From NCBI RefSeq assembly GCF_001510655.1, contig NZ_LMVC01000004.1, forward strand, positions 45,649 to 102,082: 56,434 nt of DNA, written 5' to 3'. Below the pieces are notes generated by a model that was not told the DNA's origin, searched no databases, and was given only the letters and a program-made list of their open reading frames with translations. Shown here piece after piece: positions 127-49,812 of this stretch. The stretch comes from Fictibacillus sp. FJAT-27399. GTDB lineage: Bacteria > Bacillota > Bacilli > Bacillales > Fictibacillaceae. The translations under genes were made by a program, and so were the position numbers. Within the stretch, counting starts at the first letter, position 1. Each line of letters opens with the position of its first letter.

Positions 127-1308
127 TTAAGTTGGCTCTACGATCGTACCATTAAAGGCGGCTTGATATATTTTCCTAATATCGCCTTCTAATAAAGGAA
201 GAGGACTTCTGGCCAGGATTCTTTTTTGCTTTACTCCATCCTGTGTTAAGCTCTCCAGTGCTGAATCCGGTACATTGAAGCCAGATAAAGCAGCTGGGAT
301 TCCAACATCACTCACAAGCCTCTGGAGTTCTTCTACACATTTATAGGAAGCTTCTTCTTCGGATAAGTAGGCAGAATTTCCACCCAGGGCATTTAAGATG
401 TCCGCCATACGCTTTGTGCAGCTTTTCCGAATATAACCCATTACATAGGGAAGAAGGACGGCGTTCGATTCACCGTGGGAAATGTGAAATTGCCCGCCCA
501 GCGGGTAAGCCAAGGCATGAACTCCTGCTACTCCCGCGTTAAAGAATGCAAGGCCTGCGATATAACTCCCATTGCTCATATCAATTCTTGCTTGCCGGTT
601 ATTTCCGTCTGTAACGGCCTTCCGAAGGGATCGTCCTATTAAGCGGATCGCCTGCAGAGCTAAGCCATCAGTGGCAGGGCTTGCATTCACTGAAATATAG
701 GCTTCCACTGCATGGGTTAAAGCATCAATTCCCGTAGCTGCCGTTACTTTGGCGGGAACCGATACGGTCAGCTCCGGATCAATAATGGCTACATCTGCGA
801 GAAGATAATCGTGTGTCACCACGTCTTTTGTGGTCTCTAAGGAGAGGACAGAGATATTTGTCACTTCTGAACCGGTTCCGGATGTAGTCGGAATGAGGAT
901 TTTAGGCAACCCTTTTTTTTCTACATTTTTAGAGCCGGATAAGTTTAAGTAATCAGCTGCAGAACCATCATGCACAGCCAATACTGAAGCTAATTTGGCC
1001 AAATCGAGTGCGCTTCCGCCGCCTACACCGACGACCATGTCAAATTCTCCTTCACGGGTAAAGGAAACCAGCTTTTCTCCTGTTGCTACAGGAGGTTCAG
1101 GAACGACGTCCGTGTATAAAGTGACAGAATAGCCCTGTTCTTCAAGCGGTTCTGTTACTCGTTGAGCGATTCCTATTTTGGCCAGCATTGGATCTGTGAT
1201 AACAAGGATTCTCTTTGGCGCATACTTCGCAACTTCAGGCAGCAATTCCTTCAGTGATCCCCATCCTGTGTAGCTTAATGGGGTGAAAACTAACTTTGCG
1301 ACACTCAT
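127..1308 (-). CDS. iron-containing alcohol dehydrogenase
   Basis: 393 aa, the usual length of group III iron alcohol dehydrogenases. The dinucleotide-binding motif GVGGGSALDLAK is near residues 94-105. The metal-site region has GIDALTHAVEAY and later SHGESNAVLLP near residue 275. The start follows a GAGGGGG ribosome site. It is the last of three co-directional genes, 18 bp after the lactonase. Family members oxidise short hydroxy acids or alcohols, for example 4-hydroxybutyrate to succinic semialdehyde (Agrobacterium BlcB/AttL). The context suggests it oxidises the hydroxy acid released by the lactonase. The exact substrate is inferred. Confidence 0.93.
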   Translation of the reverse strand: MSVAKLVFTPLSYTGWGSLKELLPEVAKYAPKRILVITDPMLAKIGIAQRVTEPLEEQGYSVTLYTDVVPEPPVATGEKLVSFTREGEFDMVVGVGGGSALDLAKLASVLAVHDGSAADYLNLSGSKNVEKKGLPKILIPTTSGTGSEVTNISVLSLETTKDVVTHDYLLADVAIIDPELTVSVPAKVTAATGIDALTHAVEAYISVNASPATDGLALQAIRLIGRSLRKAVTDGNNRQARIDMSNGSYIAGLAFFNAGVAGVHALAYPLGGQFHISHGESNAVLLPYVMGYIRKSCTKRMADILNALGGNSAYLSEEEASYKCVEELQRLVSDVGIPAALSGFNVPDSALESLTQDGVKQKRILARSPLPLLEGDIRKIYQAAFNGTIVEPT

Positions 1309-1326
1309 TGTTTTTCCCCCTCTATT

Positions 1327-2175
1327 TTATTCGTAATATCCTTCAGTAGATTTGCGGAATGTTTTAAATTGGTCAGCATCGTGTCCAAACCAGACTTGGG
1401 AACCTGTTTGTTTCGCGATTCTGCGTATTTTCTCAACTGCGTTTGAATAGCCCAGTGAATCATAGATAATGCCAGGCGGCTTGATCGGCGGTCCGAAGCT
1501 TTCAGCAGTATAGATAGCATCTGAGGCGAGAATAATCCCGCCTGTTTCTGGCATGTTAATCTGAAGGCCAAGCATACCCCAGGCATGTCCGCTTCCAAAA
1601 TTAAGGATATTAATTCCTTCTGCTAATTCAAGATTGTCTTCACTTCGTTTTATGGTTTTCCATTGAAGATTATTTTTTATCCAGGCATCAATATCTCCCC
1701 AGATGTATGCTCCTTCTTTTTCATTGCGGGCATACGTTTGAAGGGCACCGTTCAGCTCATCTTCATGAACGATGATTGTCGCATTTGTAAATAACTCCAA
1801 GCACCCAGCGTGGTCAAGGTGAAGGTGGGATGCTATTACGTATTTAATATCTTCGGGTCTTACATCTAGCTCCTCCAGGCGGTTATGAAGATAACATTCC
1901 TCCCCCATATTGATTGGAAACATTTGCTGAGTTGCTTTCCCCCACCGGCCTTCTGGCCCCATTGAGCTAGGATTGCAAGCAGTATCAAAAAGAATTTTAC
2001 CTGCTGGATGGTCGATAAGTACAGTATAGACAGGGAACTCGACAAACTCAGTTGGTGTATTGGGATTCTCCACTGTTGCTGGACTGTGCATCGCAATCAT
2101 CCAGTTTTTATCCATTCTCATACGGCCATTATCCATTACATAAAGCTTTGGGTTAGGTTTAATAATATTCGCCAA
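1327..2175 (-). CDS. N-acyl-homoserine / gamma-lactone lactonase, metallo-beta-lactamase fold
   Basis: 282 aa with a TTG start behind GGAGGAGAAG. The dinuclear zinc motif SHLHLDHAG puts ligands at about H117, H119, D121 and H122. Further ligands are expected at GSGHAWG (near 198), LASDAIY (near 218) and WFGHDADQ (near 265). This is the AiiA/AttM/AhlD lactonase family, cytoplasmic, with no signal peptide. It lies between an aldehyde dehydrogenase and an iron alcohol dehydrogenase. That combination matches the Agrobacterium blcABC operon, in which the lactonase BlcC opens gamma-butyrolactone. It may also hydrolyse acyl-homoserine lactones. The family is sure; the physiological substrate is inferred. 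Confidence 0.9.
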   Translation of the reverse strand: MANIIKPNPKLYVMDNGRMRMDKNWMIAMHSPATVENPNTPTEFVEFPVYTVLIDHPAGKILFDTACNPSSMGPEGRWGKATQQMFPINMGEECYLHNRLEELDVRPEDIKYVIASHLHLDHAGCLELFTNATIIVHEDELNGALQTYARNEKEGAYIWGDIDAWIKNNLQWKTIKRSEDNLELAEGINILNFGSGHAWGMLGLQINMPETGGIILASDAIYTAESFGPPIKPPGIIYDSLGYSNAVEKIRRIAKQTGSQVWFGHDADQFKTFRKSTEGYYE

Positions 2176-2189
2176 AGTACTTCTCCTCC

Positions 2190-3617
2190 TTAAAATGCTG
2201 TTTTTATGGTAACGAATTTTAATTCTGTCATTTCTTCAACGGCATATTTAATTCCTTCACGTCCATAGCCGCTGTCCTTTACTCCGCCATAAGGCATATG
2301 ATCCAGCCTAAAGGTTGGGATATCATTAATAATGACTCCGCCTGACTCCAGCTTTTTGGCCGCATGTATTGCATGAAGGATGTTTTGGGTATAGATAGCC
2401 ACATTTAATCCATACGAAGAATCATTGACCATATGGATGGCTTCATCCAGCTCATGGTAGGGAACGATTGAGACAACGGGAGCAAATGTTTCTTGGCAGG
2501 AAACCGCCATATCTTTTTTCACATTCAATAGTACGGTTGGCGGGAAGACAGAACCGTCGCGTTTACCACCTAGTGCAATGTCAGCTCCCTGCTCATTTGC
2601 TTCCTGGACCCATGACTCAATTCGCTCTGTTTCCTTAAGGTTGATCATGGCACTAATATCGGTTTTTTCATCGAGAGGGTCGCCGGCTGTTAAATTTTTT
2701 GCCTCTTCAATAAAACGCTTACAAAATTCATCATAAATGGAATCATGAACATAAATTCTTTGCAGTGAAATACAAACCTGGCCTGCAAAGGAAAATGCTC
2801 CTTCTACACATCGGGGCACAATTTTTTCCAGCGGGATATCCGGTTCAACAATTAACCCTGAATTGGAACCAAGTTCTAATGTTACTTTCCTCAACCCGGC
2901 TTTTGATTTAATCAGTTTACCTACTTCTGCACTCCCTGTGAAGGTTACTTTTTTAACTCTTTCATCAGTAATAAGAGCGTCACTAAGCTCTCTTCCGCTG
3001 CCTGTTATCACTTGAAGAGCTCCATCCGGAAGGCCGGCTTGCTTGAAGATCTCAGCGATTAATAACGCGCTTAAAGGTGTTTGTTCAGCCGGTTTCAATA
3101 CAACAGTATTTCCCGCAGCAAAGGCTGGTCCTAGTTTATGCGCGACGAGATTAACCGGAAAATTAAAGGGGCTGATTGCAACGACAACACCTAATGGTTC
3201 TCTCCATGTAAATCCTAGCCGATTCTCACCTCCAGGAGCGGCATCCATTGGAATGGTTTCTCCATAGATCCGTTTTGCCTCTTCAGCTGCAAATTGATAG
3301 GTAGCAATGGTGCGGTCTATTTCGCCACGTGCTGTTCGAATGGGCTTACCGGCCTCAAGTGCAACAATTCGTGCCAACTCTTCCTTTCTTTCACGGAGAA
3401 GTTGGACAACATTCAGCAAAATCTCTGAGCGCTTATAGGCAGGCATCACTTTCATCGTTTCATAGGCTGTTTTTGCTCCTTCAATGGCTTTTTTTACATC
3501 TGCCTCATCTGCCATACTAATGTTAGCAATAACATCCCCGCTATAAGGAGAGTGCAGTGCATAGGTTCTTTCTTTTGATTCCCATTTACCATTAATGAAT
3601 AACTCTTTAATTTCCAT
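2190..3617 (-). CDS. NAD(P)-dependent aldehyde dehydrogenase
   Basis: 475 aa from the ATG at 3617, chosen because AAGGAGG stands just upstream; an in-frame start 10 codons earlier has no such site. The catalytic glutamate lies in TLELGSNSG (about residue 250) and the nucleophilic cysteine in GQVCISLQR (about 281). The cofactor loop is FTGSAEVGK. First gene of the operon, 14 bp before the lactonase and directly behind a -24/-12 promoter. By analogy with BlcA it would oxidise succinic semialdehyde or a similar oxo-acid. The cysteine-loop motif also resembles lactaldehyde or phosphonoacetaldehyde dehydrogenases, so the substrate is open. Confidence 0.93.
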   Translation of the reverse strand: MEIKELFINGKWESKERTYALHSPYSGDVIANISMADEADVKKAIEGAKTAYETMKVMPAYKRSEILLNVVQLLRERKEELARIVALEAGKPIRTARGEIDRTIATYQFAAEEAKRIYGETIPMDAAPGGENRLGFTWREPLGVVVAISPFNFPVNLVAHKLGPAFAAGNTVVLKPAEQTPLSALLIAEIFKQAGLPDGALQVITGSGRELSDALITDERVKKVTFTGSAEVGKLIKSKAGLRKVTLELGSNSGLIVEPDIPLEKIVPRCVEGAFSFAGQVCISLQRIYVHDSIYDEFCKRFIEEAKNLTAGDPLDEKTDISAMINLKETERIESWVQEANEQGADIALGGKRDGSVFPPTVLLNVKKDMAVSCQETFAPVVSIVPYHELDEAIHMVNDSSYGLNVAIYTQNILHAIHAAKKLESGGVIINDIPTFRLDHMPYGGVKDSGYGREGIKYAVEEMTELKFVTIKTAF

Positions 3618-3642
3618 TCTCAACCTCCTTGCCTTTTTATAA

Positions 3643-3659
3643 TGCAAGATTCATGCCAA
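3643..3659 (-). promoter_or_regulatory. sigma-54 (-24/-12) promoter of the aldehyde dehydrogenase operon
   Basis: Read on the minus strand the site is TTGGCATGAATCTTGCA. It has TGGCA (-24) and TTGCA (-12), with the invariant GG and GC exactly 10 bases apart, as in the family consensus TGGCAC-N5-TTGCW. The first gene starts 26 bp downstream and a divergent sigma-54 activator gene lies upstream. Confidence 0.9.
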
Positions 3660-3711
3660 TATTAAAAATGCTTATTTTATATAAGAATTTACATTGTCTA
3701 AAGCAAATAAT

Positions 3712-3802
3712 GGTGATAAAATTCACCATAATAAAAAGAATTGTTGGTGTAACAGAGACTAAAGACGGTGAAAATCGTCACCGTTTGGTGATAATTTTCA
3801 CC
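3712..3802. promoter_or_regulatory. three palindromic activator sites (UAS)
   Basis: Three 16-bp palindromes of the form GGTGA-N6-TCACC: GGTGATAAAATTCACC at 3712-3727, GGTGAAAATCGTCACC at 3767-3782 and GGTGATAATTTTCACC at 3787-3802. Centres are 55 and 20 bp apart, and the last two are about two helical turns from each other. They sit between the sigma-54 promoter and the divergent activator gene, where an enhancer-binding protein would bind. The last ends 10 bp before the activator's ribosome site, which suggests autoregulation. Confidence 0.85.
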
Positions 3803-3828
3803 GCTTCTTGCAGGAGGCAGAGATTCCG

Positions 3829-5535
3829 ATGAAACCACTTACTGTGAACAAAGAAATTTTAGAAAGCGTTTTCTCCTCGATGCCCAACGGGGTCATTGTA
3901 GTGGACCATAATAATAGGATTTTATTCATTAATTCCTCAGCACAAAAACTAATAAAACAAGAACACCAAGACTTAGTGGGCAAAGATATTCGTGATTTTG
4001 TTCCTAATTCACCAATCCACCAAGTTCTTAATAGTGGCAAGAGCACACTCGGAGCGAAAATGACGATAGCAGGGTTGCAATGTATGGTGAATAAAACTCC
4101 CTTATATAAGGAAAATCAGCTCATTGGTGCTGTGAGTGTTATTCAGGATATTTCTCAAATCGAACATTATCGTTCATTACTCAAGCAAATGGAAAAAATC
4201 ATCGAATTTTCTACGGATGGCATTTATGTCGTTAATAGTGAAGGAATTACACTCATTGTGAATTCAGCTTACGAGGCTATGTCAGGAATCAAGAGGGAAA
4301 GACTTATCGGTCATCACATGGGCGATTTGATGAACCACGGCTACTTTGATCAATCTGTCTCACTCCTTGTCCTGCAGGATAAAAAACGCAGATCGATTCT
4401 TCAGCGAATCGGCCAGCAAAAAGATGTCATGGTCACGGGAACTCCCGTTTTCGATGAATCAGGCGAGATTCAAATGGTTGTAACCAGTGTCAGAGACATT
4501 ACTCAGCTAAATGAACTGACAAATGAGTTGAAGAAGGCAAAAAGCTTTTCTGAAATGAGTCAGAATCGATATACCTTTTCCACGGAGGGAAATGATGAAA
4601 AAGTAGTCTTTCAAAGCATTCAAATGAAGGGAATTATAGAAAAAGTAAAACAAATCGCTTCATACCCAACAAGTATATTGCTATCTGGTCCTTCAGGAGC
4701 GGGTAAAGAGGTTATTGCTAATTTAGTTCACCAATTAAGTGACAGAAAAGATATGCCTTTTATTAAAGTGAACTGCGGGGCTATCCCTGAACAGCTGCTG
4801 GAATCTGAGCTTTTTGGTTATGAAAAAGGGGCGTTTACCGGAGCAAGGCAGGAAGGGAAAGTCGGCCTGCTGGAACTGGCGGACAAGGGGACAGTTTTGC
4901 TGGATGAAGTAGGGGAACTTCCATTGTCTCTGCAAGTCAAATTGCTTCGTGTCCTGCAAGAGAAACAAATTCAAAAATTAGGCAGCAGCAAAGTAAAACA
5001 ACTAGACATTAGAATCATTTCAGCAACAAATAAACATTTGAAAGAGTTAGTGGAGAAAGGAAAATTTCGAGAAGACTTATATTACCGGCTGCAAGTGATA
5101 GAAATAGCTATTCCTCCATTGAGCCAGCGTCCTGAGGACATTGAAGTCTTGCTGGATCATTTTTTCACCTATTTCTGTAAACTATTTAATATCGAAAAGC
5201 ATGTATCACCCGAAACCAAACAAATTTTACAAAGCTATCATTGGCCGGGGAATGTGAGAGAATTAAGGAATTTAGTTGAGAGCATGATTGTTTCGGTGCC
5301 ATCACTTACTATTGAACCGGTTGATCTGCCGCCGCACTTTAGTATTCATGGTAACTCAGAGTCTGTTCATACTTTCAAACAAAGAATGGAACAGTTTGAA
5401 AAAAGAGTGATAATGGATGCGCTTCACACGAAACCCTCCATCAGAAAGGCAGCAGAATATTTAGGAGTCGATCACTCGACACTTGTGAAAAAAATGAAAA
5501 AGTGGGATAGGGAGATCAACAGAGGGATCAATTGA
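3829..5535 (+). CDS. sigma-54-dependent transcriptional activator (PAS-PAS-AAA+-HTH)
   Basis: 568 aa from the ATG at 3829, 11 bp after AGGAGG; an upstream in-frame TTG precedes that site and is rejected. Two PAS-like segments fill the first 230 residues, so it probably senses a small molecule. The AAA+ domain has Walker A GPSGAGKE (about 287), GAFTGA (about 334), which contacts sigma-54, and Walker B TVLLDEVGELP. The C-terminal Fis-type helix-turn-helix is near 534-560 (IRKAAEYLGVDHSTLVKKM). It is divergent from the lactonase operon, which has a -24/-12 promoter and three palindromes between, so it almost certainly activates that operon. RocR/AcoR class; the ligand is unknown. Confidence 0.93.
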   Translation: MKPLTVNKEILESVFSSMPNGVIVVDHNNRILFINSSAQKLIKQEHQDLVGKDIRDFVPNSPIHQVLNSGKSTLGAKMTIAGLQCMVNKTPLYKENQLIGAVSVIQDISQIEHYRSLLKQMEKIIEFSTDGIYVVNSEGITLIVNSAYEAMSGIKRERLIGHHMGDLMNHGYFDQSVSLLVLQDKKRRSILQRIGQQKDVMVTGTPVFDESGEIQMVVTSVRDITQLNELTNELKKAKSFSEMSQNRYTFSTEGNDEKVVFQSIQMKGIIEKVKQIASYPTSILLSGPSGAGKEVIANLVHQLSDRKDMPFIKVNCGAIPEQLLESELFGYEKGAFTGARQEGKVGLLELADKGTVLLDEVGELPLSLQVKLLRVLQEKQIQKLGSSKVKQLDIRIISATNKHLKELVEKGKFREDLYYRLQVIEIAIPPLSQRPEDIEVLLDHFFTYFCKLFNIEKHVSPETKQILQSYHWPGNVRELRNLVESMIVSVPSLTIEPVDLPPHFSIHGNSESVHTFKQRMEQFEKRVIMDALHTKPSIRKAAEYLGVDHSTLVKKMKKWDREINRGIN

Positions 5536-5596
5536 AACAAATTCAAAAAAATTTTATATGGTAAAATGAACAAAAACGAATGGAGAAATGATTGTC

Positions 5597-5738
5597 TTGT
5601 CTAAATTGCCTAACTGCCCAAAATGCAGCTCAGAGTATACCTACGAGGATGGCAGCCTTTTTGCACGATATTGATTGCAAAATTGACAGTTTTGGCGCCA
5701 TGAAGTTAAAATCTGAATTTGTAATGAAGATATTATGA
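5597..5738 (+). pseudogene. phnA/yjdM-like zinc-ribbon gene, internally deleted remnant
   Basis: From a TTG at 5597, behind GGAG, the frame reads LPNCPKCSSEYTYEDGSLF, the N-terminus of PhnA/YjdM-type proteins. It stops at 5669-5674. From about 5664 another frame reads IDCKIDSFGAMKLKSEFVM, the C-terminus of the same family, ending in TGA at 5736-5738. The middle of the protein, including the second zinc-ribbon cysteine pair, is gone and the halves are out of frame. Recognition of the family is from memory of its sequence. Confidence 0.7.
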
Positions 5739-6303
5739 TCGAAGCTGCTCATAAAGAATACGGCCGTGTAGATGTGCTCATCAACAATGCAGGATTACAG
5801 CACGTGTCTCCTATCGAAGAGTTCCCGACTGCTAAATTCGAACTAATGATTAAAATCATGCTGTCTGCTCCATTCATCGCGATTAAACATGCATTCCCAA
5901 TCATGAAAGAGCAAGGGTTCGGACGCATTATCAACGTGGCTTCCATTAACCGACTTATTGGGTTTGCTTGAAAAGCAGCATACAACAGTGCAAAACATGG
6001 TGTGATCGGTCTAACAAAGGTTGCGGCATTAGAGTCTGCTACTCACGGAGTAACAGTAAATGCCCTTTGTCCAGGATATGTTGACACGCCTCTCGTACGT
6101 GGCCAGATGGAAGATTTAGCGAAAACAAGAAACGTTTCTTTGGAAAGTGTTCTTGAAGAAGTCATCTACCCGTTAGTTCCGCAAAAACGTTTTATTGGAA
6201 GTAAGTGAGATCGCTGACTACGCAATGTTCCTTTCAAGCGACAAAGCAAAAAGTATTACAGGACAAGCCATCGTTATGGATGGGCGGCTATACTGCACAA
6301 TAA
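5735..6303 (+). pseudogene. 3-hydroxybutyrate dehydrogenase (SDR family), decayed 5'-truncated gene
   Basis: The remnant reads HKEYGRVDVLINNAGLQHV, then the catalytic [15 protein letters not shown], then [12 protein letters not shown] and MDGGYTAQ at the end, as in BdhA-type short-chain dehydrogenases. The first 70 or so residues with the TGxxxGIG motif are missing. There is an in-frame TGA at 5969-5971 (GGA to TGA by one change), a one-base insertion near 6194 and another near 6285. The fragment begins exactly at the end of the phnA relic. Three independent lesions show it has been inactive for some time. Confidence 0.88.
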
Positions 6304-6315
6304 TTTGTATTGTAA

Positions 6316-6561
6316 GGGGCTGTCCAGAAAGTCGAAAATTGACCTTCAGGCAGCCCCTTTTTGGCTTGAAAAATCTTCAATGAAAAGTTAATTGAAGTGG
6401 AAGATGCGAGACTCCTGCGGGACTAGCGTGACAGGTGAGACTCCCGCCGGTGCTTGCACCAAAAAGTAGGCGTTCACGCCGGTAAGGCTCACCGCACGCC
6501 CCGCGGAAAGCGAGCAGCCTGGAACGGAAATCAACAGCTTACAGACTTCTTGGACAGCCCC
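6316..6561. repeat. MITE-like repeat, family A, copy A2 (short form, complete)
   Basis: 246 bp bounded by inverted ends GGGGCTGTCCAGAAAGTC and, on the other strand, GGGGCTGTCCAAGAAGTC. Just inside the left end a second CAGCCCC followed by TTTTT lets the end fold into a terminator-like hairpin (6316-6360). The right end is also followed by TTTTT. This copy lacks the internal module of about 75 bp, running from CTCGAAAATGAACTTC to the CCTTCCTTGTC stretch, that other copies carry. No transposase reading frame. Confidence 0.85.
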
Positions 6562-6573
6562 TTTTTAGTTCTA

Positions 6574-7482
6574 TTAAACTTTTGAATCTATAGCTTTTAC
6601 GATTCTCTCACAGATCTCATGCGTTAAAAGCGAATCATCAATCGATGGATCAGGTAACTTATTATTTTGAATGCATTCGATAAAATGATCGACAATTTGA
6701 TAGAAGCCTCGTTTATACAGCGTGGGCTCCCAGTCACCAAATTTAGACATGCTGATCTCTTTATTATGATAATGTGTGGTTTCCACCAGACTGTTAACGA
6801 CATATTTATCGCTGCGAGTATGGTATTCAATGATTTCCTCTGTCACCCCGCCATTTCTGTTCATGATTCCCATAGCAATACATCCATCACCAATAAGCTG
6901 AATGATCAAGTGATCAAGCATTTCCCCATTCCTTAAAAACTGTATCTTTACATCCAACACCTCAGTATCCATTAAAAATCGAAGTGTATCTACCACATGG
7001 ATAAAATCTTCAACAACAAATCTTCGTATAAAATCCGGAGACGAATATCTGTTTTTTTGCATGAGGATTAAGCTTGCTTTCCCGTGTTCTATAAGCTCAT
7101 TCACCTTTGGTATAAACCTTCTGTTGAAACCAGCCATGGCGATACTGCCGCTTTCTTTTGCGAGCTTTACAATGCTCTCGGTTTCCTGAAGGCTCATGGA
7201 TATAGGTTTATCTATGTAAGTATGGATTCCGCTTTTTAGCAGTTTTTCAGCGATTTCAAAATGTGCCTCTGTCGCTGTACTCACAAACGCTGCATTAATG
7301 CCCTTTGTTATGAGCTCATCAACTGTCGGTACCTTTTCCTGAATTCGATATTTTTCGGACAATCTATTGAGAGTTTCGATATTCCTTGTACAAAGCACCA
7401 GCTCTATCCCTTCTTTTTCAGAAAGAACAGGCAAGTAGGCCTTTGCTGCAATGTCACCCAACCCAATAATTCCAATCTTCAT
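6574..7482 (-). CDS. Gfo/Idh/MocA-family oxidoreductase
   Basis: 302 aa. The N-terminal Rossmann motif is GIIGLGDIAAKAYLP, and the family signature DKPISMSLQETE (EKP-like) is near residues 90-100. These enzymes oxidise or reduce sugars, inositols and related polyols with NAD(P). It starts behind GGTGAAGGG. It follows a VOC gene with a 61-bp gap and ends 13 bp from repeat A2, which probably terminates it. Substrate unknown. Confidence 0.9.
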   Translation of the reverse strand: MKIGIIGLGDIAAKAYLPVLSEKEGIELVLCTRNIETLNRLSEKYRIQEKVPTVDELITKGINAAFVSTATEAHFEIAEKLLKSGIHTYIDKPISMSLQETESIVKLAKESGSIAMAGFNRRFIPKVNELIEHGKASLILMQKNRYSSPDFIRRFVVEDFIHVVDTLRFLMDTEVLDVKIQFLRNGEMLDHLIIQLIGDGCIAMGIMNRNGGVTEEIIEYHTRSDKYVVNSLVETTHYHNKEISMSKFGDWEPTLYKRGFYQIVDHFIECIQNNKLPDPSIDDSLLTHEICERIVKAIDSKV

Positions 7483-7543
7483 CCCTTCACCTCATCCCTA
7501 TTACTGAAGTTACCTTATTTCAGGTATCCTTTCTTCTCCTTTT

Positions 7544-7921
7544 TTAAACCTCTGCCTCACTCATCAAGGCATGTGTATTTCCTTCTTTATCGTTAAAGAA
7601 AGCCATCCATGTTTCGGTTTGTCCCATTTTAGCAATCAGGTGAGGTTCGCTTACAAACGCAGCACCTTTTTTAAGCATATCTTCATAAGCACTCTTAATA
7701 TGAGTCACTTGGAAATAGATGACGGAACTGGGATGGGCAAATGTTTCATTCTCAGGCAGGCTGAGCATTAAACGAAGGCCGCTGCACTCAAAGAATGCCA
7801 TGTTTTTGTTTTGAAAAAGGAGTTGAAGCCCTAAGTCGTTTTGATAAAAATCAACGGCTCTTTCCAGGTCTTTTACAGGAACTCCAATCTGTCCAATTTT
7901 ATGTATCGCTGTTGCTTCCAT
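7544..7921 (-). CDS. VOC-family (glyoxalase/bleomycin-resistance fold) protein
   Basis: 125 aa, the usual single-domain length with two beta-alpha-beta-beta-beta units. Family features are HKIGQIGVPVKDLERAVDFY at the start, LGLQLLFQNKNMAFFEC, and a C-terminal AFFNDKEGNTHALM with a likely metal-ligand glutamate (DKEGN). The start follows GAGGAGAG. It lies between an AraC regulator and a Gfo/Idh/MocA oxidoreductase on the same strand, so the three may be co-transcribed. Members include glyoxalases, dioxygenases and epimerases; the reaction here is unknown. Confidence 0.88.
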   Translation of the reverse strand: MEATAIHKIGQIGVPVKDLERAVDFYQNDLGLQLLFQNKNMAFFECSGLRLMLSLPENETFAHPSSVIYFQVTHIKSAYEDMLKKGAAFVSEPHLIAKMGQTETWMAFFNDKEGNTHALMSEAEV

Positions 7922-7974
7922 TAACCATCTCTCCTCTTTTGTTCTTTCTTCTTCATCATAAATGGTTGTTGCTG

Positions 7975-8823
7975 CTATTTCTTATCCAAAATCACTTTTT
8001 TTCGAAACTGTAGCGGAGAGATCCCGGCATGCTGTTTGAACATTTTGCTGAAAGAAGCGGGGGTCTCAAATCCCAGGTTAAAGGCTATATCGGTCATCGT
8101 CTTTTCTGTTTTCATTAATAGTTGTTTAGCTTTTTCGATTCGAAGCGCTGTGACGTGCTGGTGAGGTGTGCATCCATAGATGGCCGAATAGTTCCTTAGG
8201 AGATGATTCGTCGATAGGGAAGCAGCTTGGGAAATCTGCTGCAAGGTTACCGGCTGTTGATAAAAGGCGCGAATATATTCATGTGCGGTACTGATTCTTC
8301 TGTACAGTTCCTCCCGTGTTCCCATTTTTAACGAAGGCAGTGCCTCTGTCTCCATAACTGCATGAAACTGTTCCCTCACAATCGTTTCCATCAATTGCTG
8401 AAACTGTTCTTCCTTCCAAAGAGGATCGCTTTTTGTAGTCATATTTCCCCGGAAATAGTCGATTTGTGTGGAGAGAGCTGAAGAAAAGGGATAGGTTTTT
8501 TCAAAAAAATTGACAGAATTTAGCGGTTTAAAAGGATCGGCCAAAAGATTGCCGGAATCAGCTTTCAACGTCCTCAGCACTTCCTCGGCAAGCCCTTTTC
8601 TGAAGAATAAACAGAAAGACTCCACCTCAGTTTCTTCTTCAATAGCAATCGTATAGGCACCTTCATTTAAAAGAAGATATCGGCCTTCTTCCACCGCAAA
8701 GAAACCCCGGTTCGTTTTGTAAAGGGCCCGGCCATACCTAAACGTTTTAATTGAAAGCTGTCCATCACCTTCCCAATAAAATTCATTGCTTTTGTCATGC
8801 AGCACGTAATTTTGGGATTCCAT
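7975..8823 (-). CDS. AraC-family transcriptional regulator
   Basis: 282 aa from the ATG at 8823, directly after a GGGGGG ribosome site; a start 13 codons upstream lacks one. The N-terminal 170 residues form a cupin-like sensing domain (FFAVEEGRYLLLNEGAYTI). The C-terminal double helix-turn-helix holds VTLQQISQAASLSTNHLLRN and the family signature IAFNLGFETPASFSKMFKQ. It is upstream of the VOC and oxidoreductase genes (53-bp gap), a plausible local regulator. Confidence 0.92.
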   Translation of the reverse strand: MESQNYVLHDKSNEFYWEGDGQLSIKTFRYGRALYKTNRGFFAVEEGRYLLLNEGAYTIAIEEETEVESFCLFFRKGLAEEVLRTLKADSGNLLADPFKPLNSVNFFEKTYPFSSALSTQIDYFRGNMTTKSDPLWKEEQFQQLMETIVREQFHAVMETEALPSLKMGTREELYRRISTAHEYIRAFYQQPVTLQQISQAASLSTNHLLRNYSAIYGCTPHQHVTALRIEKAKQLLMKTEKTMTDIAFNLGFETPASFSKMFKQHAGISPLQFRKKVILDKK

Positions 8824-9052
8824 CCTATCCCCCCTAAGCAAGTTCCTAATGCAATTATACATAAAATTGGAAACAAATGTCTTTCATTGCTTTTCAAGAT
8901 TAAGAAGGATAAAGGATGGTCAGAATGTTCCAAAGAAGACAAAACAGCGCCACTGAATACCCAGACTTTTTATGGTAAGATAACAGGTGGTTACGAAAAA
9001 GTATGCTGTCTTTTGGGACAGTTCATTATATGTTTTGAAAAGAGGGTAAAAA

Positions 9053-10120
9053 ATGGTAAAGGAATCCATCTATGGATTAACATTTGAACAGCTGGCTGCC
9101 TGGCTATTAGAACGGGGCCATAAACCATATCAAGCATCCCTGGTTTGGGAATATCTATATAGAAAACGAGTCACTTCCTTTTCTGAAATGAGCGATGTAA
9201 AAAAGGAATGCATCGAAATGCTTTCAGAAAGCTTCGAGTTCCAGACGATGCAGCAGCATGTGAGGCAGGAATCAGAGGATGGCACGATCAAGTTTTTGTT
9301 CAAGCTGCGGGACGGTAACTTGATCGAAACGGTATTAATGAAGCACAAATACGGCTTGTCTGTTTGTGTGACGACCCAGGTCGGCTGCAACATTGGCTGC
9401 AGTTTCTGTGCGAGCGGTTTATTGGCCAAAAGCCGCGACTTATCGAGCGGTGAGATCGTCGAGCAGATCATGAACGTCCAGCTTCATCTTGATCAAAGAA
9501 ATCAGGATGAAAAAGTGAGCCATATCGTTGTCATGGGAATTGGAGAGCCATTTGATAACTTTGAAAATATGATTGATTTCATAAAAGTGGTGATTAATCA
9601 TAAAGGACTCGCGATTGGCGCGCGTCATATCACGGTTTCTACAAGTGGACTCGCCAACAGGATTTATGAATTTGCTGACTCTCAGCTACCCGTGAATTTG
9701 GCGATTTCCCTTCATGCACCGAATAATGAATTACGGACACGCATCATGAAAATAAACCGTGCGATTCCTATTGAAAAATTAATGGAATCCTTGGATTATT
9801 ATTTAGAAAAAACAAACAAGAGAATTACGATTGAGTACATTTTATTAAGAGATGTTAATGATCATAAGGAAGAAGCAGAACAACTCGCTGATTTGCTCCA
9901 GGATAAAAAGCAAAAGGTCTACGTCAACCTTATTCCGTACAATCCAGTAGACGAACACAGCCAATATCAGCGAAGCGAGGAGAAGTCTGTGCTGACGTTT
10001 TACGATACACTGAAAAAACGGGGCATCAACTGCAAAATCCGCCAGGAGCACGGTACTGATATTGACGCTGCATGCGGACAGTTGAGAAGCAAACAGATTA
10101 AAAAAGAAAAAGCGCAATAA
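9053..10120 (+). CDS. rlmN: RlmN/Cfr-family radical SAM rRNA methyltransferase
   Basis: 355 aa. The radical SAM cluster motif CNIGCSFC has cysteines at 112, 116 and 119, and the methyl-carrying cysteine is in [10 protein letters not shown] (about 341). RlmN makes 2-methyladenosine at A2503 of 23S rRNA; Cfr makes the 8-methyl mark at the same base. HITVSTSG and [10 protein letters not shown] are RlmN-like, while [11 protein letters not shown] and [13 protein letters not shown] differ from the B. subtilis RlmN I remember (CASTLGGLKRNL, LIPVNYVPE). It is not in the conserved rsmB-rlmN-prpC-prkC cluster, so it may be a second family member. The family is certain; RlmN rather than a Cfr-like activity is probable. 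Confidence 0.8.
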
Positions 10121-10126
10121 CGCTGT

Positions 10127-10160
10127 AAAGAAGACCAGACTTTTGTCGGGTTTTCTTTTT
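10127..10160 (+). terminator. probable terminator of the RlmN-family gene
   Basis: AAGACCAGAC, a TTTT loop, then GTCGGGTTTTC runs into TTTTT. The stem is imperfect. Confidence 0.55.
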
Positions 10161-10285
10161 ATTTGGATTACTTTTCTGCAGTGATTAGTGAGCGGTTGAT
10201 AGGTCGAATAGTGCACAATACTAGTTATTCATCATATAGTTTTGGGTATAATCTAAAGCAAAGCTTTACATAAAAGGAGATAACC

Positions 10286-10768
10286 ATGATTCCTAAAACG
10301 ATAGAAGAACTAGAAGCCATCCGAACGGAATGTAGAGTGCTGGTTAATAAACGAGCGTCAGCTTCTGCGGCGGCCGCTGTTATCCCGATTCCCGGAGTAG
10401 ATGTGGGTGCGGACATCACGATCATGATGGAATTACTCCCGGCCATTAATGAGAAGTTCGGCTTGGCGCCCGGCCAGATTGAGAAGATGGATGCAACATT
10501 GAAAGGGAAAATCATTGTACTCATTACGTCAGCGGGCAGCCAGTTTGCTGGCAGAGTCGTAACGAAACAGATGATTTCTCTTTTATTAAAAAAGGCAGGT
10601 AAACGCATAGCGGTCAAACAGGTCACGAAGTTCGTACCTTTTGTAGGACAGGCGGTAGCGGCCGGTATCAGTTTTGCTGCGATGAAATATCTCGGTAATT
10701 CTCATATTGAGGAGTGCTATCAAGTCTGTAAAAAGATGATAGAAGAACAACAGATGCCAGCACAATAA
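10286..10768 (+). CDS. small hydrophobic protein, DUF697-like
   Basis: 160 aa starting after AAAAGGAG. The N-terminal 25 residues are helical and charged. Then come a Gly/Pro/Ala-rich hydrophobic stretch (ASAAAAVIPIPGVDVGADI), a second around ITSAGSQFAGRVV, and a third, VPFVGQAVAAGISFAAMKYL. The pattern resembles the DUF697 membrane-associated domain found in some GTPases and stand-alone proteins. No catalytic motif is visible. Isolated gene with its own terminator; function unknown. Confidence 0.75.
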   Translation: MIPKTIEELEAIRTECRVLVNKRASASAAAAVIPIPGVDVGADITIMMELLPAINEKFGLAPGQIEKMDATLKGKIIVLITSAGSQFAGRVVTKQMISLLLKKAGKRIAVKQVTKFVPFVGQAVAAGISFAAMKYLGNSHIEECYQVCKKMIEEQQMPAQ

Positions 10769-10774
10769 TACAAA

Positions 10775-10812
10775 GAAAGCCCTATCCCGCATACGGGGTA
10801 GGGCTTTTATCA
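10775..10812. terminator. bidirectional terminator
   Basis: AGCCCTATCCC and GGGGTAGGGCT are perfect stem arms around a 6-base loop, followed by TTTTAT on the plus side and TTTCTTTG on the minus side. It serves the DUF697-like gene and the convergent phosphatase gene. Confidence 0.9.
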
Positions 10813-10818
10813 TAAAGC

Positions 10819-12714
10819 TTATTTTGTTTTCAAATCTCCTGATGGAAGTCCTGAGAGGTAGCCGACTCCGCCAGTTTCCTGGATTCCTATGCCTTTTTTC
10901 ATGGCATCTTCGAGCTTTTCCTTATCTACTGCTGTAATTTGTTTTCCATCCAGATCTTCACCCGGGTGCTGGAAGTTGCTAAGCAAATAGCGGGAATTCT
11001 TCAGCTGATCAACCGCTCGCAAGCCCGTTGCTTCAGCCCCTGCTGGAACAGAAAGTATTCTTGAAAGTTTTTTCGTTTTAACATTATAGGCCCAAACAAA
11101 GTTGTTGGTGTGATGCGAGCTGTCTTCACCGATAAATAGCGTGTCCATGTCGTTGGAGAAGGTAAGATTATCTGGATTCGCTATTTTATCCGGATTGGCA
11201 GTATTGCCGTATGCATCAGATTTTGGAAGATCCTCACCGACAAGGAGACCCTTCATTTTTGAAGGCGCATAGCGGCTATTGATGTTGTGGCTGCTATGAT
11301 CTTTTTGATCGGCATTCAAATCTAGTTCAAAGGTTGTTCCAGAGTCAAGAACCGGCATTTGGATGTCATCCTGCACGCCGCTGATATCCTCTTTTTTCAT
11401 ACTTCCGTTTTCATATGAAATGGCGATATAGGCTTTATGGCCAGCCTTATTAACGGCAATTCCCTCCATTTTATTGAACTCAGAAGTTGCACCAAGCAAT
11501 GCGCCATATCGTCGTGATTCTAGGAATGCTGCAGCCTTTTCCATGCCTGGCTTAACTTTAAGATACTCTACCTTCTTGCTTGCAGCTGTTTTTATCGCTT
11601 TAAAGCCAGGAGCAGGTTGCGCCGAAGTTTCAAAGATATCGCTGAATTTCGTGCCTTTATCGATTATTTTCTTTACTTCTTTGTCTGTTGAGTGGCCAAG
11701 CTTGATCCACTGCAAGTCTCCTGCGCCGCCGTTATCTGAAGACGTTTGCTTGAATTTTGCCGCATATAGAGTCCCTGCAGAGAAGTCTCTCTTCTGATCG
11801 GCGACATACATAAACATCATCGTATTACCGCCGTCATCTCCAAACAATGCTGTTTTTTGATCAGGCATCACCTGCATGATTTCATGGGAAAAGCGTCCTG
11901 TGCTGTAATGTTTTACCACGCTGGTATTGCCATTGGGGTGAATAGAGATCTCTGGAATCCATCCATAGAAATAAGGATTGGCTTTTGATTTGTCTCCAAA
12001 GTAGTGCTGTGCAAAATTGGTGACATCACGATAGGAATCAGAAGAAGAATCTTCGAACGCACGGGCATCCGGTTCATATTCTTCAGATCCAAGGTGAGTT
12101 CCCCAATCTGTTGTGGAACCGTTACAAGGTGTCCATAGGCCGTTCACGTTAGAAAAGTCAATTTTCTTCGCATGATTAACGGTAAGCTTGCCTGTTTTCT
12201 TATCGCGGTCAACTTGAGTCAGTGTCATGGATGCAGGAAGTCCTTTAATTTCGTTTCCGGCATTATCCATGGAATCATACTCATAATGAGAGATAATATA
12301 ATCTTTTCCGGCAATCGTAATAAAACTATTGGAATCGGGTGCGTCAGAAATATAATATGAAGGCTTGTCAGGCACGCTTCGATCAACGATAGGATTGCCT
12401 TTTGCATCAATAGGTGTACCTGCAGGAATCTTTTCGCCTTTGTTGTCTACAATTTTATCTTTGGATAAGAATAGCTGATTATAATTTAACGGAGTTTCTT
12501 TTACCGTACCGTCTTTGTACGTGATTTTTACTTTTGCCTCTGTATACGTTTTTACCATGTTTTCAATGGTGCTTGGTGCTTTCATTGATTCGAATTCTAT
12601 GCTCTTGATCTGGTTATGGGAAAAGCGATGGTGCTGGTCAGTTGAAGCAAAGGCTGGAATGGCGCTTGAGGCCATGATCGCCAAGGATAATCCGATTGAA
12701 ACTTTTTTCTTCAA
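10819..12714 (-). CDS. PhoX-like (DUF839) secreted alkaline phosphatase
   Basis: 631 aa with a cleavable Sec-type signal peptide: KKK, hydrophobic core GLSLAIMASSAIPAFA, likely cut after AFA at about residue 23. PhoX/DUF839 features are WTPCNGSTTDWGTHLGSEEYEPDAR (in part, near 193-217), SHEIMQVMPDQKTALFGDDGG, EGIAVNKAGHKAYIAIS, and FSNDMDTLFIGEDSSHHTNN near the C-terminus. PhoX enzymes are calcium/iron phosphatases of the six-bladed propeller type. Classical PhoX uses a twin-arginine signal; none is seen here. Probable role: phosphate scavenging outside the cell. Confidence 0.85.
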   Translation of the reverse strand: MKKKVSIGLSLAIMASSAIPAFASTDQHHRFSHNQIKSIEFESMKAPSTIENMVKTYTEAKVKITYKDGTVKETPLNYNQLFLSKDKIVDNKGEKIPAGTPIDAKGNPIVDRSVPDKPSYYISDAPDSNSFITIAGKDYIISHYEYDSMDNAGNEIKGLPASMTLTQVDRDKKTGKLTVNHAKKIDFSNVNGLWTPCNGSTTDWGTHLGSEEYEPDARAFEDSSSDSYRDVTNFAQHYFGDKSKANPYFYGWIPEISIHPNGNTSVVKHYSTGRFSHEIMQVMPDQKTALFGDDGGNTMMFMYVADQKRDFSAGTLYAAKFKQTSSDNGGAGDLQWIKLGHSTDKEVKKIIDKGTKFSDIFETSAQPAPGFKAIKTAASKKVEYLKVKPGMEKAAAFLESRRYGALLGATSEFNKMEGIAVNKAGHKAYIAISYENGSMKKEDISGVQDDIQMPVLDSGTTFELDLNADQKDHSSHNINSRYAPSKMKGLLVGEDLPKSDAYGNTANPDKIANPDNLTFSNDMDTLFIGEDSSHHTNNFVWAYNVKTKKLSRILSVPAGAEATGLRAVDQLKNSRYLLSNFQHPGEDLDGKQITAVDKEKLEDAMKKGIGIQETGGVGYLSGLPSGDLKTK

Positions 12715-21151: not shown

Positions 21152-21376
21152 AGGCTGTTTTCGTAACCTTTGTTGCCCTTAGGAGTGGTTGATTTCCGTT
21201 TCAGGATGCTCGCTTTCCGCGGGGCGTGCGGTGAGCCTCCTCGGCGCATGTGCCTGCGGGTCTCACCTGTCCCGCCTGTCCCGCAGGAGTCTCGCACCTT
21301 GCACTCCAATCAACTTGTCAATGAAGGCTCTTTACAAAAATGTTTCCAAAGCAACAATCCTTTATAAAAGAGCCTT
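21152..21376. repeat. shared-core repeat, family B, copy B2
   Basis: Inverse orientation to B1. The left end is AGGCTGTTTTCGTAACC and the right end runs TGTTTCCAAAGCAACAATCC to AAAAGAGCCT. The core in between (TTCCGCGGGGCGTGCGGTGAGCC, in part, and CGCAGGAGTCTCGCACC) matches families A and B. No coding potential; reading frames across it are artefacts of the high-GC core. Confidence 0.8.
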
Positions 21377-49506: not shown

Positions 49507-49812
49507 GGGGCTGTCCAAGAAGTCTGTAAGCTGTGGATTTCCGTTCCAGGCTGCTCGCTTTCCGCGGGGCGTGCGGTGAGCCTTACCGGCGTGAACGCCT
49601 ACTTTTTGGTGCAAGCGCCTGCGGAAGTCTCACCTGTCACGCTAGTCCCGCAGGACAAGGAAGACTCCGGCAGCGTTTAATCGCACGAAGAAAATGTGAA
49701 GTTCATTTTCGAGGAGTCTCGCATCTTCCACTTCAATCAACTTTTCATTGAAGATTTTTCAAGCCAAAAAGGGGCTGCCTGAAAGTCAATTTTCGACTTT
49801 CTGGACAGCCCC
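49507..49812. repeat. MITE-like repeat, family A, copy A4 (long form, inverted)
   Basis: 306 bp between GGGGCTGTCCAAGAAGTC and the inverse of GGGGCTGTCCAGAAAGTC, with the internal module. It is preceded by a run of A and followed by TTTT, and sits between convergent genes, where it can end transcription from both sides. Confidence 0.9.

Follow-up and report, generated by a model that had tools for sequence, protein, structure and literature searches.

The blcABC operon of Agrobacterium (attKLM; locus L093 in our set), with its divergent regulator gene blcR (attJ), groups an aldehyde dehydrogenase (ALDH), an iron-containing alcohol dehydrogenase (ADH) and a metallo-lactonase. It degrades gamma-butyrolactone and also cuts acyl-homoserine lactones (AHLs) (PMC5924552), and it is reported to be induced by breakdown products and not by AHLs (PMC6262395, PMC5924552), a pattern that a catabolic role would lead one to expect at the locus described here. 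This locus lies at positions 127-5535 of a 56,434-nucleotide stretch of Fictibacillus sp. FJAT-27399 (the window), where ALDH, metallo-lactonase and iron ADH genes, recognized with Pfam, form one operon facing a gene for a sigma-54 activator. The sequence itself shows the genes and their operon spacing, the promoter and sites and how well these are conserved, and a sigma-54 gene in the genome. We propose, with a probability of about 0.75, that the block is a dedicated, substrate-inducible operon for lactone catabolism. Its features are as follows.

127..1308, minus strand: group III iron-containing alcohol dehydrogenase, last operon gene, 393 residues (Pfam PF00465/PF25137)
1327..2175, minus strand: AhlS/GcL-family metallo-lactonase, 282 residues (NF047976, 554 bits)
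2190..3617, minus strand: aldehyde dehydrogenase, first operon gene, 475 residues from ATG 3617 (Pfam PF00171)
3643..3658, minus strand: sigma-54 -24/-12 promoter TGGCATGAATCTTGCA, 25 bases before the ALDH ATG (consensus match)
3712..3727, no strand: proximal palindrome, predicted activator site GGTGATAAAATTCACC (pattern match)
3767..3782, no strand: palindrome, predicted activator site GGTGAAAATCGTCACC (pattern match)
3787..3802, no strand: palindrome, predicted activator site GGTGATAATTTTCACC (pattern match)
3829..5535, plus strand: sigma-54 enhancer-binding activator, 568 residues from ATG 3829 (Pfam PF00989, PF13426, PF00158, PF18024/PF02954)

The three enzyme genes are transcribed in the order ALDH (3617-2190), lactonase (2175-1327), iron ADH (1308-127), with gaps of only 14 and 18 bases, which confirms the tight linkage that an earlier note on this DNA had pointed out. 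The starts listed by the gene-finding program for the ALDH and the activator are too far upstream. The ALDH most likely begins at ATG 3617 and not at TTG 3647, because the latter falls within the -12 element, and the activator most likely begins at ATG 3829 and not at TTG 3808; with these starts the two genes are separated by 211 bases. The operon contains no transporter gene, which would fit a membrane-permeant substrate.

The same note had called the locus equivalent to blcABC. The comparison stands for the enzyme classes and the catabolic logic, and it does not stand for the lactonase family, the gene order, the regulator or the ALDH. Indeed, the Agrobacterium order is ALDH-ADH-lactonase, whereas the lactonase occupies the middle position in the window; BlcR belongs to the IclR family, as the note had stated and as L093 bears out, whereas a sigma-54 activator takes its place here. 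The window lactonase is 31.5% identical to BlcC, a member of a different family, and 41.8% identical to AiiB of the Ti plasmid. The window ALDH shares 34.7% of its residues with BlcA and 36.2% with GabD, and, unlike BlcA, it falls below the cut-off of the succinate-semialdehyde dehydrogenase (SSADH) model. The same enzyme logic was probably assembled separately in blc and window-type operons.

Closer relatives by lactonase sequence are GcL of Parageobacillus caldoxylosilyticus and AaL of Alicyclobacillus, which have been studied as quorum-quenching enzymes; the word operon does not occur in the main text of the two reports (PMC6062542, PMC11423328). The GcL source species (L028) has an activator, lactonase and iron ADH block with the same promoter and sites, although its block differs from that of the window in having no ALDH, and in two other Alicyclobacillus species (L072, L073) a zinc ADH occurs with an SSADH-type ALDH. 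In Priestia megaterium, the lactonase gene aiiB is described as preceded by a sigma-54-interacting regulator and followed by an iron-containing alcohol dehydrogenase (PMC12501872, 2025), so that the gene neighbourhood is already published for one species. The passages of that report on the locus read the enzyme as quorum quenching and describe neither promoter nor sites, and its main text uses neither the term aldehyde dehydrogenase nor the term operon. The qsd operon of Rhodococcus is likewise an inducible lactone-catabolic system that quenches AHLs, although it relies on the QsdA lactonase, an acyl-CoA ligase and a TetR-like repressor, and neither alcohol dehydrogenase nor aldehyde dehydrogenase is named in the main text (PMC6262395). 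The literature searched, which covers few subscription papers, yielded no catabolic reading, promoter or sites for this neighbourhood, and PMC12501872 was the only report found there that pairs a homoserine lactonase with an iron-containing alcohol dehydrogenase.

The activator has a PAS-PAS-AAA+-Fis-type helix-turn-helix architecture according to Pfam, with a GAFTGA loop read in the translation, and the 211-base gap holds the consensus -24/-12 promoter (3658-3643) together with three GGTGA-N6-TCACC palindromes; the PAS-type sigma-54 activator with predicted sites of its own, as first suspected, is thus present. The single sigma-54 encoded in the genome matches PF04963 with 168 bits, and nine sigma-54 activator domains score above 200 bits, that of the present activator included. 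We compared the gap with those of a set of named loci (L numbers), 80 kept of 106 encoding a lactonase relative. A strict promoter (TGGCAY-N5-TTGCW) occurs in 33 of the 35 intergenic regions with a divergent activator (34 named loci and the window), and the two misses, L046 and L078, are each one base off. The palindrome is found in all 35 when one mismatch is allowed and exactly in 33, and at least two copies were counted by hand in 34. A search of up to 450 upstream bases at each of the 46 remaining named loci found the promoter in two, both with a same-strand activator upstream. For comparison, 43 strict promoters were counted over 3.2 million positions, both strands of all 80 loci included, and the palindrome lies at five places in the 4.5-Mb genome of the window, three of them in this gap.

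When site and promoter were combined into one pattern and sought in 397 whole genomes of the order Bacillales, ten matches were obtained in ten genomes, against one genome for a reversed control pattern, so the pattern is not due to chance. All ten have an activator homologue on one side and the first operon gene on the other, this gene being the ALDH in six and the lactonase in four; in six of the ten, the 3-kb stretch stops before the lactonase, and a separate homologue search places it adjacent. Since every match precedes this operon, the activator looks dedicated to it. A wider regulon was considered and is not supported, the combined pattern occurring once in the window's own genome.

The lactonase family is patchy, since only 23 of the 397 genomes have it (E<=1e-60; 63-100% identity). 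Sixteen of these were read directly, one is the window itself and six were matched to named loci. Every one of the 23 has an ADH in the same gene run as the lactonase, although these ADHs belong to two unrelated families, iron-type in 15 and zinc-type in eight; in the zinc cases L131, L132 and L134 the ALDH lies between the lactonase and the ADH. An activator homologue is present in 13 of the 23, always with the strict promoter. An adjacent ADH was also found in 59 of the 80 named loci, and in 11 named loci a LacI-type regulator replaces the activator. Across operons, unrelated ADHs and unlike ALDH subfamilies swap in and the lactonase stays.

We then considered the nature of the lactonase, which the earlier note had assigned to the AiiA/AttM type. 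This assignment was wrong: the window protein scores 554.1 bits against the AhlS/GcL model NF047976 (cut-off 475), 139 bits against the AttM/BlcC model NF045700 (cut-off 390) and 107 bits against the AiiA model (cut-off 375), so that both of the latter types were rejected. It matches the GcL structure (PDB 6n9q) with 568 bits and is identical to the P. caldoxylosilyticus lactonase of L028 at 232 of 282 residues. It has H117, H119, D121, H122, H197, D219, Y222 and H265, all as in that protein, and these cover the HxHxDH motif, the further metal ligands and the catalytic Asp and Tyr. D121 and Y222 correspond to Asp122 and Tyr223 in PMC11423328, where the numbering is one higher. AaL, of the same family, cleaves gamma-butyrolactone with a kcat/KM of 1.4e5, and delta-valerolactone and delta-decalactone with 4.5e5 each (PMC6062542).

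In a lactonase tree of 82 rows, one cluster (99/84) unites the row of the GcL species with Geobacillus and with two Alicyclobacillus rows of the zinc type; another (95/98) joins the 15 Paenibacillaceae rows that lack an ADH to two Paenibacillus rows that have the operon. The second cluster suggests that in Paenibacillaceae the operon preceded the solo lactonase, in a tree whose root is not fixed; with its very long outgroup branch and its drawing from the midpoint, the tree gives no firm order of gains and losses. AiiA-type lactonases were considered as a second carrier of the block and rejected: within about 5 kb of the three AiiA loci, in two of the 397 genomes, neither the zinc ADH nor the window ADH, ALDH or activator has a homologue. 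The claim that the Bacillaceae lactonase is primarily catabolic is therefore narrowed to the AhlS/GcL family, and even there it does not extend to the 20 named loci that lack an adjacent ADH.

The iron ADH reaches the cut-off of none of the NCBIfam models listed, the best being lactaldehyde reductase (302 bits, cut-off 523). The best model for the ALDH is NF040648 (568 bits, cut-off 650), and it is nearest to lactaldehyde-dehydrogenase-like enzymes, not to SSADH. Against the SSADH model TIGR01780 (cut-off 646), BlcA scores 737 bits, and the operon ALDHs score 683 (L038), 640 (L072), 636 (L059), 405 (window), 402 (L132) and 366 (L061). The substrate-binding triad of Escherichia coli GabD is R164, R283 and S445 (PMC2823781, figure legend), two of these positions being one higher in the numbering used here. 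GabD and BlcA have Arg-Arg-Ser at these positions and the window ALDH has His-Ser-Thr. Gene position follows the same division: of the 11 ALDHs encoded downstream of the lactonase, nine have Arg-Arg-Ser, a tenth, truncated where its contig ends, shows Arg-Arg-gap, and the last (L077) is split and gives no fit. The 31 encoded upstream, which is the arrangement of the window, comprise 30 with His-(Ser/Ala/Gly/Val)-Thr and a single fragment.

From these elements we infer activator binding, inducer, flow and substrate in the following scenario. A lactone or its breakdown product would act as inducer, and the PAS-type activator, bound to the GGTGA-N6-TCACC sites, would turn on the sigma-54 RNA polymerase at the -24/-12 promoter. 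Ring opening by the GcL-type lactonase would give a hydroxy acid, whose hydroxyl the iron ADH would convert to an aldehyde; oxidation of this aldehyde by the ALDH would yield a dicarboxylic acid for central metabolism. The lactonase would genuinely cleave AHLs as well, as a secondary activity. The most likely substrate is a small lactone of the gamma or delta type, with gamma-butyrolactone among the candidates.

Several observations weigh against this proposal. Ten of the 23 lactonase-bearing genomes have neither activator nor promoter in the stretch fetched (shorter than 8 kb in two cases), and three of the 13 activator-bearing genomes lack the exact combined pattern. Twenty of the 80 named loci, from Paenibacillaceae and Planococcus/Planomicrobium, have no ADH beside the lactonase for reasons other than a contig end, so that catabolism is not universal in the family (the 21 loci without ADH comprise 15 from Paenibacillaceae, five from Planococcus/Planomicrobium behind a gene judged aspartokinase-like by eye, and one cut by a contig end). 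The divergence of the ALDH from SSADH, in score and in triad, belongs here as well. On the biochemical side, AaL is faster on C4-AHL (1.3e6), its best measured substrate, and its KM is 171 uM for gamma-butyrolactone versus 9-83 uM for AHLs (PMC6062542). The Planococcus lactonase AidP, not necessarily of this family, is reported to be inactive on gamma-butyrolactone (PMC6240239). Lastly, a recent paper considers GcL perhaps more likely to be specialised for quorum quenching (PMC11423328).

A special case of the general proposal is the strict blcABC analogue, leading from gamma-butyrolactone through 4-hydroxybutyrate and succinic semialdehyde to succinate. The three enzyme classes are identical, the window ADH is closer to BlcB (40.5%) than to YiaY (35.8%) or FucO (31.9%), AaL does cleave gamma-butyrolactone (PMC6062542), and the Halalkalibacter locus L003 has a second sigma-54 activator, iron ADH, 459-residue protein and SSADH beside the block. 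Some sister operons even have an SSADH-type ALDH, that of L038 lying over the TIGR01780 cut-off and those of L059 and L072 just under it, all three with Arg-Arg-Ser. However, the window lactonase lies outside the AttM family and the window ALDH has neither the score nor the triad, so the route to succinate appears to fit these sister operons better than the window, for which we regard it as a tentative possibility. Because this ALDH subfamily lacks the succinate-semialdehyde pocket residues, one could imagine that the GcL/AhlS lactonases of Bacilli perform the first step of a widespread pathway, inducible through sigma-54, whose lactone substrate is not gamma-butyrolactone and may even be an AHL, by way of a new oxidation of N-acyl-homoserine; we consider this doubtful. 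The AHL version taken by itself, from acyl-homoserine lactone to acyl-homoserine, acyl-aspartate semialdehyde and acyl-aspartate, is quite improbable: an opened AHL does carry a primary hydroxyl and a non-SSADH ALDH leaves the aldehyde's identity open, but no acylase or ligase partner is apparent, since no gene cluster outside the four core genes is common to more than 12 of the 80 loci (the clusters are not all annotated). We know of no precedent for this oxidation. The preference of AaL for C4-AHL is in its favour (PMC6062542).

It is also conceivable that the lactonase mainly quenches the quorum sensing of competitors, the dehydrogenases being incidental or using the released products. GcL and AaL bind and cut AHLs well (PMC11423328, PMC6062542), and the P. 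megaterium lactonase, with its adjoining sigma-54 regulator and iron ADH, degrades AHL and is reported to act as a quorum-quenching enzyme against a plant pathogen (PMC12501872). In ten of the 80 loci, all from Paenibacillaceae (L035, L036, L048, L057, L060, L066, L067, L068, L071, L076), a lactonase without ADH diverges from an HxlR-type regulator gene, and there it possibly serves in detoxification or quenching. For the operon itself, quenching as the main role is unlikely, given the ADH in the gene run of all 23 homologues of the order, the sigma-54 cassette specific to this operon, and the nesting of the ADH-less Paenibacillaceae rows with two operon-bearing ones in the lactonase tree, whose root is not fixed. 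A route that forms the lactone as an intermediate from a diol or cyclic ether (1,4-butanediol by way of its lactol) before opening it would account for alcohol and aldehyde dehydrogenase genes flanking a lactonase gene, and the solved-structure relatives of the window ADH include 1,3-propanediol dehydrogenases; nothing specific favours it, no search of the flanks for oxygenases having been made, and we consider it very unlikely.

The genomic evidence thus points to a catabolic pathway that is inducible and has a regulator and sites of its own, and the breaking of signals by this lactonase family may be a side effect of lactone use. Gram-positive bacteria are not known to make AHLs. The native role of GcL-type quorum-quenching lactonases is now directly testable through the inducer of a single promoter. 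A lactonase gene alone is no proof of quorum quenching, and the neighbouring genes need to be checked first.

Some neighbourhoods of the block deserve mention. In L003 (741-6545), the second sigma-54 activator has a promoter-like sequence TGGCACATTCCTTGC; the second iron ADH is 48% identical to that of the window, the 459-residue protein has no Pfam match, and the set looks like a putative 4-hydroxybutyrate operon. In L128 (2587-10024), the neighbours of a zinc-ADH block include a kinase-like gene (PF07005/PF17042, sugar-binding/nucleotide-binding), a gene of the PdxA family and a transporter of the sugar type, which hint at sugar-acid lactones. In nine Planococcus/Planomicrobium loci (L019, L020, L022, L023, L026, L029, L030, L044, L052; about 5000-10850), the lactonase follows an aspartokinase-like gene by about 100 bases and adjoins homoserine dehydrogenase-, threonine synthase- and homoserine kinase-like genes, all named by eye.

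In the window, a short-chain dehydrogenase remnant, 3-hydroxybutyrate dehydrogenase-like by eye, lies at 5690-6310 and has an in-frame stop and an apparent frameshift. Near-identical repeats (1-113 and about 6450-6563), two same-direction copies, happen to flank the operon and this remnant, and further copies lie at 21208-21239 and 49553-49584. A mobile element bounded by these repeats was considered and rejected: they belong to a dispersed family whose core has 133 matches in the genome (up to two mismatches, both strands), so the pair around the operon is not special. Plasmid copies do occur (L091/L092), in Peribacillus sp. R9-11 with the full block and in Planococcus lenghuensis with a run of lactonase, ADH and ALDH that has transposase genes on both sides.

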